A DNA stretch of 45,742 nt, taken from Thioalkalivibrio sp. GTDB lineage: Bacteria; Pseudomonadota; Gammaproteobacteria; Ectothiorhodospirales; Ectothiorhodospiraceae. The stretch is taken from positions 1-45,742 of the forward strand of contig NZ_REBW01000169.1 in assembly GCF_007692535.1 (NCBI RefSeq). The letters are read 5' to 3'. Made by a program: the position numbers and the translations under genes. Every line of letters begins with the position of its first letter. The stretch's first letter is position 1. The notes below the pieces were generated by a model. That model was not told the origin of the DNA. It worked only from the letters and a program-made list of their open reading frames with translations, and searched no databases. This document shows positions 13,274 to 19,485 of this stretch, one piece after another.

Positions 13274-15043
<1,770 letters not shown>

Positions 15044-15053
15044 GTCCGACCGG

Positions 15054-15458
15054 TCAGAACGTGTTCGCAACGCGTTCCACGCCGGGGGCCCGCGCACGGA
15101 CCAGACGCTCGACGACGTTCTTGAGGTCCAGCGTGGAACGCGGACAGCCCACGCAGGCACCCTTCAGACGCACCTGCACCGTGCGTCCATCGAGGCCCAC
15201 GTATTCGATGTCACCGCCGTCCTGCTGCAGGATCCGGCGCGCCTCCTCCACCGCCTGACGCACCGCCGCCTCGTCGATCGGACCCTCGGCGGGCTCATCG
15301 AGCGCCTGGCGCTGCGCGAAGGTCTGTGCGCGGTCCAGGCGCAGGGCCAACTCGGGATCGACGGCCTCGATCGCGTCCAGTTCATCCTCGGTGTAGACGT
15401 GTTCCGGATCGTCACTGAGCAGATGATCGACCGCGGCCATGTCCCGGGGCGTATTCAT
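15054..15458 (-). CDS. NifU-like Fe-S scaffold/carrier domain from internal start (alternative product)
   Basis: From the internal ATG the product is 134 residues: an acidic N-terminal region (DDPEHVYTEDELDAIEA, helical) and a complete NifU C-terminal domain with VEEARRILQQDGGDIEYV and CVGC. The family delivers or holds Fe-S clusters, and as neighbour of SdhB (three Fe-S clusters) a maturation role is plausible but inferred. GGAG eight bases before the ATG is as good as sites used elsewhere here. The extra N-terminal region is not part of the NifU domain, which supports a natural protein start at this point. Confidence 0.6.
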   Translation of the reverse strand: MNTPRDMAAVDHLLSDDPEHVYTEDELDAIEAVDPELALRLDRAQTFAQRQALDEPAEGPIDEAAVRQAVEEARRILQQDGGDIEYVGLDGRTVQVRLKGACVGCPRSTLDLKNVVERLVRARAPGVERVANTF

Positions 15459-15998
15459 GGGCTGCGCTCCGCGCTTGGTCAGGGCGGCGAGTATACCAAC
15501 GGCCCGCTGCGCGCCCTCCTGAAGCCGCGCGGTCAGGCCGGGTTTGTCGTCTGCCTCCGGCGGCCAGCGCAGGCGCACCCGCAGGCGGCGGAAGTCCTCC
15601 GGGTCCAGCCGCCACCAGGGCAGCCACAGCACCTGGACCGTTCCCGTGTCCGCGACGCCGCAGACCAGCACGACCATCCGGGCCCCCACGCGGCTGTCTC
15701 CCGAGACCCGGATGCCGGTCCGCTGTTCATGACGCAGCCCCTCGCGCGTCGCCAGCCACCACTGTCCCTCGGTATCACAGCCCAGCCAGTCCCAACGGGG
15801 GCCGCGCAGACGCACGGACCAGGCCACGGCAAAAAGGGAGAGGATCAGCGTCAGCAGCGCGGGGATCCAGCCGCTGTACGCCAGTGCGTAGAGCACCACG
15901 CCGGCCGCCACCGCGAACAGCCCCAGCGCCGCCAGCGGCGGCAGGAAGGGGTCATGCCTCAGGGCGATCCGCAGTGGCGGCGCGGATGAGCGGGACAA
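15054..15998 (-). CDS. Composite ORF: YgfX-like membrane domain joined to a NifU C-terminal Fe-S domain
   Basis: One uninterrupted 314-residue frame. Residues 1-180 resemble YgfX (CptA-type partner of SdhE): two hydrophobic segments at about 17-40 and 44-60, then a soluble part with GPRWDWLGCDTEGQWWLA and VLWLPWWRLDPEDFRRLRV. Residues about 240-314 are a NifU-type domain with GGDIEYVGLDGRTVQVRLKG and the Fe-S ligand pair CVGC. YgfX is expected directly after sdhE, and it overlaps that gene's end here by 47 bases. The apparent start is TTG; no ATG precedes the membrane segment in frame. An internal ATG at 15458 with GGAG eight bases upstream could give the NifU part alone. Whether the cell makes the fusion, the short form or both is open. 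Confidence 0.75.
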   Translation of the reverse strand: MSRSSAPPLRIALRHDPFLPPLAALGLFAVAAGVVLYALAYSGWIPALLTLILSLFAVAWSVRLRGPRWDWLGCDTEGQWWLATREGLRHEQRTGIRVSGDSRVGARMVVLVCGVADTGTVQVLWLPWWRLDPEDFRRLRVRLRWPPEADDKPGLTARLQEGAQRAVGILAALTKRGAQPMNTPRDMAAVDHLLSDDPEHVYTEDELDAIEAVDPELALRLDRAQTFAQRQALDEPAEGPIDEAAVRQAVEEARRILQQDGGDIEYVGLDGRTVQVRLKGACVGCPRSTLDLKNVVERLVRARAPGVERVANTF

Positions 15999-16209
15999 GG
16001 CGGGCTATGCCCGAATCCACCGTCGCCTGGCGCCCCAGCACCAGGTCCAGCAAAAGATTGTCGGGGTAGCCCAGCAAGCGTTCGAAGGCATCGCGACCCT
16101 CCTGGTCAAGACTGTCATATCCATGATCGAGAAAACGGCCCAGCAGCAGGTCATTTTCCAGCATGCCCCGACGACAGCGCCAGCGCGTGCGGGTGTCGGG
16201 CATCACCAT
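15952..16209 (-). CDS. sdhE: Succinate dehydrogenase assembly factor SdhE (YgfY)
   Basis: An 85-residue cytoplasmic factor that promotes covalent attachment of FAD to SdhA. The essential RGxxE motif is present as RRGMLENDLLL near residue 14, followed by FLDHGYDSLDQEGRDAFERLL and DNLLLDLVLGR, the standard helical bundle. Start ATG 16209 has GGAGG about nine bases upstream; another ATG lies two codons later. It follows sdhB by 28 bases, so it is co-transcribed with its substrate. Its end overlaps the YgfX-like ORF, as in other gammaproteobacteria where ygfY and ygfX overlap. Confidence 0.94.
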   Translation of the reverse strand: MVMPDTRTRWRCRRGMLENDLLLGRFLDHGYDSLDQEGRDAFERLLGYPDNLLLDLVLGRQATVDSGIARLVPLIRAATADRPEA

Positions 16210-16237
16210 CGCAGCCCGCCTCCGTGTTCGACCGCGA

Positions 16238-16939
16238 TCACACCGAGCGCTTGATCATGGTCCTGCGGATGTCGCCGATCGCCTTCGAGGGATTCAGGCC
16301 CTTCGGACACACCTGCGTGCAGTTCATGATGCCGTGGCAGCGATAGAGACGGTAGGCGTCGTCGAGACGCTCGAGCCGGTGCTCGGTGGCCTGGTCGCGG
16401 CTGTCCTCGATAAAGCGCGCGGCCTGCAGCAGCGCCGCCGGTCCCAGGAAGCGGTCCGGGTTCCACCAATAGGAGGGGCAGGACGCCGAGCAGCAGCCGC
16501 AGAGGATGCACTCGTACAGCCCGTCGAGGCGGTCGCGATCCTCCGGGGACTGCAGGCGCTCGACCTCGGGCTCCGGCGAGTCGTTGATCAGCCAGGGCTC
16601 CGCCTCACGGTACTGGCGGTAGAAGTTGTCCATATCGACGATCAGGTCACGGATCACCGGCATGCCCGGGAACGGGCGCAGCACCACGGGCGCCTTCAGA
16701 TTCGCAAGCGGCATGATGCAGGCAAGCCCATTGGTACCGTTGACGTTCATCCCGTCGCTGCCACAGACACCGTGCTGACACGAGCGCCGGAAGCCGAGGC
16801 TGTCGTCCTGCTCCTTCAGCAGCAGCAGGGCGTCCAGCAGCATCATGCCGGGTTCGACCTGGTCGTCGGGCAGCGTGAACGACTGCATGTAGGGTGCGCT
16901 GTCGGTGTCGGGATTGAACCGGTAGATCGAAAATTCCAT
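16238..16939 (-). CDS. sdhB: Succinate dehydrogenase iron-sulfur subunit SdhB
   Basis: A 233-residue membrane-peripheral subunit passing electrons from FAD to ubiquinone. The N-terminal [2Fe-2S] domain has C54, C59, D62 and C74 in SCQHGVCGSDG and GLAC. The C-terminal domain has CILCGCCSASCP for [4Fe-4S] and CHGIMNCTQVCPKGLNP completing the [4Fe-4S]/[3Fe-4S] ligands. The start at 16939 is fixed by AGGAGG seven bases upstream and by MEFSIYRF. The product ends in the usual basic tail MIKRSV. It is separated from sdhA by an unusual A-rich 73-base spacer. Confidence 0.97.
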   Translation of the reverse strand: MEFSIYRFNPDTDSAPYMQSFTLPDDQVEPGMMLLDALLLLKEQDDSLGFRRSCQHGVCGSDGMNVNGTNGLACIMPLANLKAPVVLRPFPGMPVIRDLIVDMDNFYRQYREAEPWLINDSPEPEVERLQSPEDRDRLDGLYECILCGCCSASCPSYWWNPDRFLGPAALLQAARFIEDSRDQATEHRLERLDDAYRLYRCHGIMNCTQVCPKGLNPSKAIGDIRRTMIKRSV

Positions 16940-17012
16940 CCGCAAGCCTCCTGGGGGCACGCAACCAACGACTGGCTAAAAGCCAAAAACTAAAAGCTAA
17001 AACCCAAACCTG
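16940..17012 (-). repeat. A/T-rich short-repeat spacer between sdhA and sdhB
   Basis: On the minus strand this spacer contains repeated TTTTAGC-type units (TTTTAGCTTTTAGTTTTTGG and CTTTTAGCC), unlike the GC-rich surroundings. Other junctions in this operon are 4-base overlaps or under 30 bases. It ends with the sdhB ribosome-binding site. Function unknown. Confidence 0.5.
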
Positions 17013-18776
17013 TCAGTAAACCCGCTTTTTCGGCGGGAAGGATTCGACCGTCACCGGCTGAGTACGCACCGGCTTGTAGTCCATCGAATCGTCGAGCAGC
17101 GAATAAAGCGAGTGTTTCAGCCAGCGCTCGTCGTCCCGTTCGGGAAAGTCGACCCGGCTGTGTGCGCCACGGCTCTCTTCCCGGCCCAGTGCCGAGCACA
17201 TCGTGGCCATTGCACAGTCCATCAGGTTCTCGAGTTCCATCGCCTCGATCCGCGCGGTGTTGAAGGTCTGCGTGTGGTCCCGGATCACCGCGTTTTCGAT
17301 CCGTTCGCGAAGCACGCGCAGCTTGTCCACACCCTCCTGCATCACCTCGGCGGTGCGGAATACGCCGCAGTGGTCCTCCATGACCTTGCGCAACTCCCGC
17401 CGCAGCGGCTCCACCGCCTCCCCGTCGCCCTTGCGCTCCCAGCGCGAAAGGCGTTCCAGGGCCTGGTCCACCGACGCCTGGGGCAATGGACGGTGATAGC
17501 GGTTTTCCTTCAGGAAATCGAGGATGTGGTTGGCCGCCGCACGGCCGAACACCAGGATGTCGAGCAGGGAATTGCCACCCAGCCGGTTCGCGCCGTGCAC
17601 CGAGACGCAGGCGGCCTCGCCCGCGGCGTAGAGCCCTGGCACCGGGTCCTCCGGCGTATCCTTGACCGGAACCACGACCTGGCCATCGCGGTTGGTGGGG
17701 ATGCCACCCATGCTGTAGTGACACGTCGGAAAGACGGCAATGGGTTTCTCGATGGGATCGACGCCGAGAAAGGTCATGCTCATCTCGCGGATGCCCGGGA
17801 GCTTCTTCATGATCGTGTCGGTGCCGAGGTGGCGCATATCCAGAAGGACGTGATCCTTGTTCTTGCCGCAGCCCCGACCCTCGCGTATTTCGATTGCGAT
17901 CGCACGGCTGACCACGTCGCGGGATGCGAGGTCCTTTGCCTGCGGCGCGTAGCGCTCCATGAAGCGCTCACCCTCACCGTTGATCAGGAAGCCGCCCTCG
18001 CCGCGCACGCCCTCGGTGATCAGCATCCCGCGACCGGCGATTCCGGTCGGGTGAAACTGCACGAATTCCATGTCTTCCAGCGGCACACCCGCGCGCAGGG
18101 CCATGGCCATGCCATCGCCGGTGTTGCTCAGGGCGTTGGTGTTGGTGCGAAAGATCTGCCCCGCGCCGCCGGTGGCGATCAGCGTCGTCTTGGCCTCGAT
18201 CACGATCGGCTCACCGCTCAGGATCTCGAAGGCCACCACGCCAAGCACATAGCCTGCTTCGTCCTTGATCAGGTCGATCGCGAAGTACTCGTCGAAGAAA
18301 TGTGTGCGCGCGCGAAGGTTCTGCTGGTACAGCGAGTGCAGGATCGCATGACCGGTCCGGTCCGCGGCGGCACAGGTCCGTGCCGCCTGTTCCTTGCCGA
18401 AATTCTGGCTCTGTCCACCGAAGGCCCGCTGGTAGATCCCGCCATTGTCCAGCCGTGAGAACGGCACACCGAAGTGCTCCAGTTCGTAGACGACCTTCGG
18501 GGCGGCCCGGCACATGTACTCGATCGCATCCTGGTCCCCGAGATAGTCGGAGCCCTTGATGGTGTCGAACATGTGCCAGTGCCAGGAGTCCGGCAGAACG
18601 TTGGCCAGCGCGGCATTCACACCGCCCTGCGCGGCGACAGTGTGCGAGCGCGTCGGAAACACCTTGGAGACGACCGCGACACGGGCGTCGGCGTTGGACA
18701 ACTGCAGTGCGGCGCGCAGACCGGCGCCGCCGGCCCCGATGATCAGGGCATCGAACTTCCGCGTGGTGAGTTTCAT
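17013..18776 (-). CDS. sdhA: Succinate dehydrogenase flavoprotein subunit SdhA
   Basis: A 587-residue catalytic subunit oxidising succinate to fumarate in the TCA cycle and respiratory complex II. The Rossmann GAGGAGLRAAL lies near residue 14. The covalent-FAD histidine is in RSHTVAAQGG. The substrate-site motifs are QFHPTGIAG, the active-site arginine region near RYAPQAKDLASRDVVSRAI, and HYSMGGIPTN. The C-terminus DYKPVRTQPVTVESFPPKKR is typical. Start ATG 18776 overlaps the sdhD stop by four bases (ATGA); nine further upstream codons in frame lie within sdhD and are not family-like. Confidence 0.98.
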   Translation of the reverse strand: MKLTTRKFDALIIGAGGAGLRAALQLSNADARVAVVSKVFPTRSHTVAAQGGVNAALANVLPDSWHWHMFDTIKGSDYLGDQDAIEYMCRAAPKVVYELEHFGVPFSRLDNGGIYQRAFGGQSQNFGKEQAARTCAAADRTGHAILHSLYQQNLRARTHFFDEYFAIDLIKDEAGYVLGVVAFEILSGEPIVIEAKTTLIATGGAGQIFRTNTNALSNTGDGMAMALRAGVPLEDMEFVQFHPTGIAGRGMLITEGVRGEGGFLINGEGERFMERYAPQAKDLASRDVVSRAIAIEIREGRGCGKNKDHVLLDMRHLGTDTIMKKLPGIREMSMTFLGVDPIEKPIAVFPTCHYSMGGIPTNRDGQVVVPVKDTPEDPVPGLYAAGEAACVSVHGANRLGGNSLLDILVFGRAAANHILDFLKENRYHRPLPQASVDQALERLSRWERKGDGEAVEPLRRELRKVMEDHCGVFRTAEVMQEGVDKLRVLRERIENAVIRDHTQTFNTARIEAMELENLMDCAMATMCSALGREESRGAHSRVDFPERDDERWLKHSLYSLLDDSMDYKPVRTQPVTVESFPPKKRVY

Positions 18777-19111
18777 GTCAGTGCCGCCTCGATCAGGATC
18801 CACAGTGCCCAGAAGCCGAGCAGCAGAAACGCCACTGCCACGGCCACCAGGGCCGTCAGCCGCACGGACACGGGTCGCACGTAATCGATGATCACGTCGC
18901 GCAGCCCGATCCAGGCGTGCAGCAGCATCAGAAGGATGAACGCCACGGTCGCCAGCCAGACCACCGGATGCGTGACCAGGGCAACCCAGGCACCGTGATC
19001 GGCGGGGGGCCTCGCCAGCAGGACCGCGATTGCGAGGAAGACGTAGAGTCCGGCATAGATCGCGGTAACCCGTTGCAGCAACCAGGCGCGCTGCCCGCTC
19101 AGCAAACTCAT
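18773..19111 (-). CDS. sdhD: Succinate dehydrogenase membrane anchor SdhD
   Basis: A 112-residue inner-membrane anchor with three transmembrane helices (about 12-34, 47-68 and 85-108). Together with SdhC it forms the quinone and heme b site. The conserved segment LLHAWIGLRDVIIDYVRP carries the heme-ligand histidine and the Asp-Tyr pair (D82/Y83 of E. coli) that lines the quinone pocket. The N-terminal WLLQRVTAIYAGLYV matches the family. Four-base overlaps with both sdhC and sdhA indicate tight coupling. Confidence 0.95.
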   Translation of the reverse strand: MSLLSGQRAWLLQRVTAIYAGLYVFLAIAVLLARPPADHGAWVALVTHPVVWLATVAFILLMLLHAWIGLRDVIIDYVRPVSVRLTALVAVAVAFLLLGFWALWILIEAALT

Positions 19112-19485
19112 AGGAACATCACCCAGAGCAGGACCGCGGCGACCACCCCGGCGATCAACGCAGACCAGGCCGTCTGCCGCCCGCCCTCACGCGTCTCGCC
19201 GATGCCGATCTCCACAAGCAGGAACCGGATTCCCACGAAGAAATGATGCATCAGAAGCCACAGCCAGACGAGCAGCAGGAACAATCCAATCGGGTGTCGA
19301 AGCACGTCCACGGCCTGGGCGAACCCCCCGGGATCCGCAAGCGAACGACCGAAAAGCCACAAAACCAGAGGGATTGAAAGAATGAGCAGAACCCCGGTGA
19401 CACGGTGGAGAATGGAAACCAAGGCATTGACGGGAAGGCTGATCTTGGTTAGATCCAGGAAGACCGGACGCGCCTGACTGGGCAT
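19108..19485 (-). CDS. sdhC: Succinate dehydrogenase cytochrome b556 subunit SdhC
   Basis: A 125-residue inner-membrane protein with three helices (about 28-47, 66-88 and 104-124). SILHRVTG near residue 24 supplies the Ser and Arg of the quinone site. HHFFVGIR retains the heme ligand (H81, equal to E. coli H84). The next residue, His91 in E. coli, is Phe here, and the following Asp is Glu. Start ATG 19485 has GAGGAG six bases upstream. It is the first gene of the operon and diverges from ygfZ across about 114 bases. Confidence 0.95.
   Translation of the reverse strand: MPSQARPVFLDLTKISLPVNALVSILHRVTGVLLILSIPLVLWLFGRSLADPGGFAQAVDVLRHPIGLFLLLVWLWLLMHHFFVGIRFLLVEIGIGETREGGRQTAWSALIAGVVAAVLLWVMFL

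Follow-up and report, generated by a model that had tools for sequence, protein, structure and literature searches.

We propose that the open reading frame found downstream of the succinate dehydrogenase genes of a sulfur bacterium, a Thioalkalivibrio species, is a dual-product gene, which probably yields both a membrane-tethered YgfX-Nfu protein and a free Nfu expressed from an internal promoter. The window, that is, the whole stretch of 45,742 nucleotides that was analysed, belongs to a draft assembly of 277 contigs. The composite ORF comes after sdhCDAB-sdhE, all on one strand (Table 1), and therefore has the sdhE neighbour expected of ygfX. It runs on the minus strand for 314 codons from TTG to stop with no internal stop, and the TTG start, which lies inside sdhE, is shared by all 28 genes of the genus and follows an in-frame stop by two codons. 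The initial annotation had read here a single stop-free frame joining a YgfX-like domain to a NifU-type domain, with an ATG at the domain border and a GGAG eight bases upstream of it; all of these are present in the sequence.

Table 1. Positions, in the window, of the sdh genes, the composite ORF and its elements
Feature	Position	Strand	Remarks
sdhC, cytochrome b subunit	19108..19485	-	PF01127, 6.6e-26
sdhD, membrane anchor	18773..19111	-	PF01127, 1.2e-9
sdhA, flavoprotein subunit	17013..18803	-	PF00890, 1.4e-114
sdhB, iron-sulfur subunit	16238..16960	-	PF13085, 3.8e-28
sdhE, SDH flavinator	15952..16209	-	PF03937, 1.3e-21; overlaps ygfX start by 47 nt
Composite ORF ygfX-nfu	15054..15998	-	314 aa, TTG start at 15996-15998
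YgfX/CptA part, residues about 1-145	15564..15998	-	two predicted membrane helices and beta-rich domain
Linker, residues about 146-180	15459..15563	-	low-confidence in model; carries putative internal promoter and leader
CGGCTTC block upstream of -10, conserved	15521..15527	-	4 changes in 7 sites, against a linker mean of 3.4 per site
Extended -10 promoter-like element TTGGTATACT	15490..15499	-	TGnTATACT, ATA codon
GGAG, Shine-Dalgarno-like	15467..15470	-	8 nt before internal ATG; 27/28 genus genomes
Internal start codon ATG of nfu, residue 181 of fusion	15456..15458	-	kept in 27/28 genus genomes
nfu reading frame	15054..15458	-	134 aa if internal start used; NifU domain 15069-15263

The domain assignments, for which a profile check had been suggested, stand well for NifU and a little less well for YgfX. 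Pfam places the NifU domain (PF01106) of the window protein at residues 246-310 with an E value of 4.4e-21 and 75.2 bits against a cut-off of 27, and the C-x-x-C motif (C282 and C285) is invariant in ten of ten aligned sequences. This domain is the sole one of its kind in the window genome; a NifU profile search across 30 genomes of the genus recovered one domain in 28, always in the composite frame, and none in the other two, which are 80% and 66% complete. The protein does not qualify as NfuA (TIGR03341, 13.4 bits against a cut-off of 269.35), no A-type domain was matched in the fused protein, and the match to NifU proper (TIGR02000, 44.4 bits against 273.3) concerns the C-terminal domain alone and does not make it a full-length member. 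Since three A-type carrier genes are located elsewhere in the genome, other Fe-S carriers exist in the cell. The helical region of Nfu, HVYTEDELDAIEAVDPELALRLDRAQ (window 15264-15431), is conserved and has no Pfam match at E <= 0.01; a similar stretch is retained in the better Nfu matches of the same class. As for YgfX, whose absence from residues 1-180 in a profile search would have told against the initial annotation, PF07254 finds residues 25-146 of the window protein (E 9.6e-6), but with 26.2 bits the match falls just under the cut-off of 27.3. The assignment is nonetheless supported, because the fused proteins of relatives match the same profile: eight of the ten scanned among the 28 of the genus at E <= 0.01 (best 4.5e-8), and both of the two scanned among the three fusions of a second genus above the cut-off (39.4 and 38.9 bits). 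An AlphaFold model of the fusion, built on 11 sequences and of moderate quality (mean pLDDT 65, pTM 0.37), predicts helices at residues 19-41 and 44-63 followed by strands, in keeping with a two-helix YgfX, the helices being taken from the model only. Residues 146-198, between the two better-modelled parts, have a pLDDT below 50, as has the C-x-x-C loop (282-286); a low-confidence segment between two parts predicted to fold fits a tether.

The fused open frame is more than a chance occurrence, as it recurs in 31 of the 35 genomes matched when 58 were searched with the whole protein. Within the genus it is open in every one of the 28 genomes with a match (30 searched, own genome included; 316-323 aa), and in a second genus of the same family in three genomes out of three (342-346 aa), which at the level of sequence shows it to be a natural fusion conserved across two genera, one of the readings offered by the initial annotation. 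The remaining four matches correspond to a separate nfu (G033, G055) or to NifU-type matches in other frames (G030, G057). When the Nfu part was searched across the class, 50 of 369 sampled genomes matched, and long open frames were again returned, among them those of L053, L058, L061, L063 and L067 and weak matches (below about 60 bits, frames of 190-430 codons). L053 was looked at more closely: what precedes nfu in its frame is not recognisable as YgfX, and ygfX is found in another frame. There may be further ygfX-nfu fusions outside the family. The two genera may have acquired the fusion once or twice: on the Nfu tree, the fusion label needs three changes, two of them forced by well-supported branches, and 0% of 200 bootstrap trees manage with one label change; the same tree nests Ectothiorhodospira shaposhnikovii within the genus, at the end of a long branch.

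What did the locus look like before the fusion? In two other families, f127 (three genomes) and f151 (three genomes), sdhB, sdhE, ygfX and nfu follow one another on one strand as separate genes, and all six ygfX frames exceed the PF07254 cut-off (36.7-49.8 bits). Each of them ends in a stop of its own, which precedes nfu in the f127 genomes and falls close to the start of nfu in those of f151. In the three f151 loci (L053, L055, L057), the ygfX stop and the nfu start overlap or almost do so, in different frames, an arrangement that is possibly a step toward fusion, or a case of translational coupling. Both strains of E. shaposhnikovii encode a ygfX (39.6 and 31.7 bits with PF07254) that stops 14-23 nt short of the candidate ATG codons of nfu and is in a different frame, and G033 possesses a short YgfX-like frame (15.9 bits, below the cut-off, E 0.015) whose TAA precedes the nfu ATG by 4 nt. 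As separate ygfX and nfu genes occur in relatives, the ancestral state was likely that of two adjacent genes. G030 and G035 harbour ygfX (37.4 and 49.6 bits), and no nfu of the composite type was found in either genome; the NifU match of G030 (L047, 3320-4402) belongs to a frame of 361 codons, which on visual reading resembles a long NifU preceded by an IscU-like part. In G033, G035 and E. shaposhnikovii (L044, L084, L083, L042), ygfX faces sdhE on the opposite strand and is accompanied by nfu in G033 and E. shaposhnikovii, while the SdhB near L083 appears by eye to be of a different type.

The alignment of the junction brought out a TTG-n-TATACT block ahead of the internal ATG. TGnTATACT, which we take by its consensus to be an extended -10 element, is found in 29 of the 31 fused genes, the exceptions being L012 (TACACT) and L014, and its TATACT is 31 nt from the ATG in all 29; it is thus a TGnTATAAT-like sequence at a fixed place before the start codon, as befits an extended -10 sigma-70 element. 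In the three genes of the second genus, the ATG stands two codons further on in the alignment. Codon usage speaks in the same sense: codon -12 is the rare ATA in 26 of 28 genus genes, against two of their other 212 isoleucine codons, and the two clades compared show a pS of 0.13 and 0 over the five promoter codons, where the YgfX, Nfu helix and NifU parts reach 0.42-0.50. Judged from these patterns, the conserved thing at the -10 block is DNA and not protein. On the tree, TATACT underwent three changes over six sites, GGAG two over four and ATG three over three, against the linker mean, and loss of the ATG is confined to L014. Because the nine-base windows with the fewest changes sit elsewhere in the gene, in the sdhE overlap and the YgfX and Nfu parts, we compare these elements with the linker only; among the 893 nine-base windows of the whole gene, TATACT is not one of the most conserved. 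A simple sigma-70 scan of positions 15000-16300 gave no -35/-10 pair, so that the -10 match rests on its conservation, and a standard scan of the same interval gave no terminator. Extended -10 promoters can do without a -35 box. We infer that TGnTATACT, as a putative promoter, drives transcription of a short nfu transcript. The CGGCTTC block, which uses an uncommon CTT codon, is conserved at 0.89-1.00 per base in 27 genus genes, a profile that leaves out L014. As a -35 box it was rejected, its end being 25 nt before TATACT, which is too far; it is possibly the site of a regulator.

Similar hexamers precede nfu in part of the loci where the genes are separate. TATAAT occurs 32-35 nt before nfu in all three f127 loci, and G033 shows TATACT 29 nt before nfu, inside the YgfX-like frame and in the same codon phase. 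The scan of the 20 non-fused loci covered 19, L059 being without an ATG candidate: TATA[AC]T lies at 29-36 nt in five and at 6 nt in one, and is absent from the 60 nt before nfu in 14, among which the unscannable L059 is counted. The three f151 loci and both E. shaposhnikovii records, where ygfX is beside nfu, show no TATA[AC]T within 60 nt before nfu. In shuffled upstream DNA, 0.3% of 42-nt stretches contain the hexamer.

The genome G012 (locus L014) deserves particular attention, as it keeps the fusion without the internal start. This single-contig genome, rated 100% complete, encodes one NifU domain, in the fused frame, and its gene has lost the -10 element (CATGCT instead), the GGAG and the ATG (CGC instead); two in-frame ATG codons and some GTG codons are left in the vicinity, and visual inspection shows no clear Shine-Dalgarno sequence for any of them. 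The joint loss fits with three elements that would work together. The dN/dS of its Nfu is 0.28-0.38 to the neighbour L013 and 0.12-0.17 to more distant genes, close to the 0.08-0.14 that L013 itself gives with them; the Nfu of G012 is still constrained, perhaps more loosely. It fits these data that the fusion alone can do the Nfu job in this species and, given a G012 devoid of -10, GGAG and ATG, free Nfu is not always needed.

A dual-product gene was one of three possibilities raised by the initial annotation, next to a natural fusion and to two genes whose separating stop has been lost, and it is the one best supported by sequence comparison, since ATG and GGAG are conserved together with an extended -10 element that had escaped the annotation. 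The 277 contigs of the window assembly might suggest that an assembly or sequencing error deleted a stop between two genes, in which case relatives were predicted to show a stop or a frameshift. However, the genus orthologues compared are open in 28 of 28 genomes (G010, G012 and G029 consist of one or two contigs), as are three of another genus; because 30 other genomes carry the open frame, we reject such an error, to which we attach hardly any probability. The loss of a stop is thus a likely event in the history of the gene, as separate genes in relatives indicate, but not an artefact of this genome. One may also argue that only the fusion is made, with Nfu present solely as a membrane-tethered protein and ATG, GGAG and TATACT surviving as relics. 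The two parts are indeed without a separating stop, and G012, which has a single NifU domain, appears to be in this situation. Relics should decay, yet ATG and GGAG persist in 27 of 28 genomes and the rare ATA in 26 of 28, and silent change is lowest at the promoter codons, which makes this explanation very improbable.

Conversely, it could be that only free Nfu matters, the fused frame being a by-product of a chance loss of the ygfX stop that added a harmless Nfu tail, with selection acting on the promoter, the leader and Nfu alone. The evolution of the linker lends some credit to this idea: its parts have dN/dS values of 0.5-1.7 (one part is undefined, pS being 0), compared with 0.26-0.39 for YgfX and 0.01-0.03 for NifU, in a comparison of 10 and 13 of the 28 genus genes that left out L012, L013, L014, L027 and L028. 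By these ratios the linker behaves as promoter and leader DNA whose amino acids are nearly unconstrained, and a GC-rich linker may stay open by chance. Against this, none of the 28 genus genomes has a stop in the linker, whereas stops were expected in 7.5 of 28 tips under a neutral simulation replaying 369 parsimony changes randomly on the tree; 2.1% of 2000 runs were stop-free (P about 0.02), and 1.6% of 1000 runs with a stronger transition bias. As a single genome of the 28 shows a stop in the +2 frame of the linker (9 of 28 for the +1 frame), this frame-retention signal is only moderate. The second genus has the fused frame as well, and the fusion of G012 has stayed intact after the loss of the internal start. 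On balance we hold the by-product explanation to be unlikely, without dismissing it, and retain the dual-product gene.

If so, ygfX would be translated from the sdh operon transcript at the TTG within sdhE and, for want of a stop, give a 34-kDa fusion in which a flexible tether links the two-helix membrane anchor and the YgfX domain to an Nfu domain at the C-terminus. From the extended -10 within the tether a short nfu mRNA would arise, and its GGAG and ATG would direct the synthesis of free Nfu (about 15 kDa); the old nfu promoter would thus have been retained inside a natural fusion kept by evolution. Through its N-terminal anchor, the fusion would keep Nfu membrane-bound, close to SdhE and the SDH subunits, and the Nfu part probably delivers Fe-S clusters to client proteins. 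From this arrangement we infer that the two products are both made, that the -10 is in use and that the tethered form serves SdhB. It is tempting to go further and to imagine the fusion as a dedicated tethered carrier that loads SdhB, in parallel to SdhE loading FAD on SdhA, while other clients receive free Nfu expressed from the intragenic promoter and the tethered form of G012 is the sole Nfu; we put this forward as a tentative idea, more doubtful than probable.

Fusion, dual product and intragenic promoter are known in general, and bacterial genes with two products arising from an internal promoter or start are a known kind. In common with them, one frame would here give a long and a short product, with the difference that the short product represents the older gene, once separate, and the long one comes from fusion with a neighbour. 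YgfX/CptA (PF07254), the partner gene of SdhE, shares with the composite protein the two predicted membrane helices, the soluble domain and the position directly after sdhE, but the fusion adds the tether and the Nfu domain and begins at a TTG inside sdhE. Likewise, the C-x-x-C NifU domain is common to Nfu/NifU C-terminal domain proteins (PF01106; solved relatives 2z51, 1xhj, 2m5o), which are encoded by a separate gene in related lineages; unlike these, Nfu is here fused to a membrane anchor and keeps its own start and a promoter-like element within the fused frame. The NfuA of E. coli and Pseudomonas has the NifU domain in common with it, although the NfuA profile is far below cut-off. P. aeruginosa nfuA has its own promoter with a +1 located 20 nt before the ATG and an IscR site and control (PMC6084964), a layout similar to that of the putative nfu promoter described here. 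No paper on YgfX with NifU, or on Thioalkalivibrio with YgfX, was found in the open-access literature, nor was the combination of a ygfX-nfu fusion with an internal promoter-like element, in a search that covered few subscription papers.

These observations may bear on the function of YgfX, which is disputed: according to PMC8621075, YgfX has been described as a toxin in E. coli, whereas work in Shewanella saw no toxicity, and it has no agreed function. The pairing of YgfX and SDH with Nfu makes sense in the light of yeast, where the loss of Nfu1 reduces SDH activity and Sdh2 levels (PMC5014551). The gene offers a clear example of a fused coding frame that has preserved a promoter-like element within it, and G012 provides a natural fusion-only species for comparison. 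Finally, the conserved fusion to an Fe-S carrier within an sdh operon hints, on genetic grounds, at a place for YgfX in SDH or Fe-S assembly.
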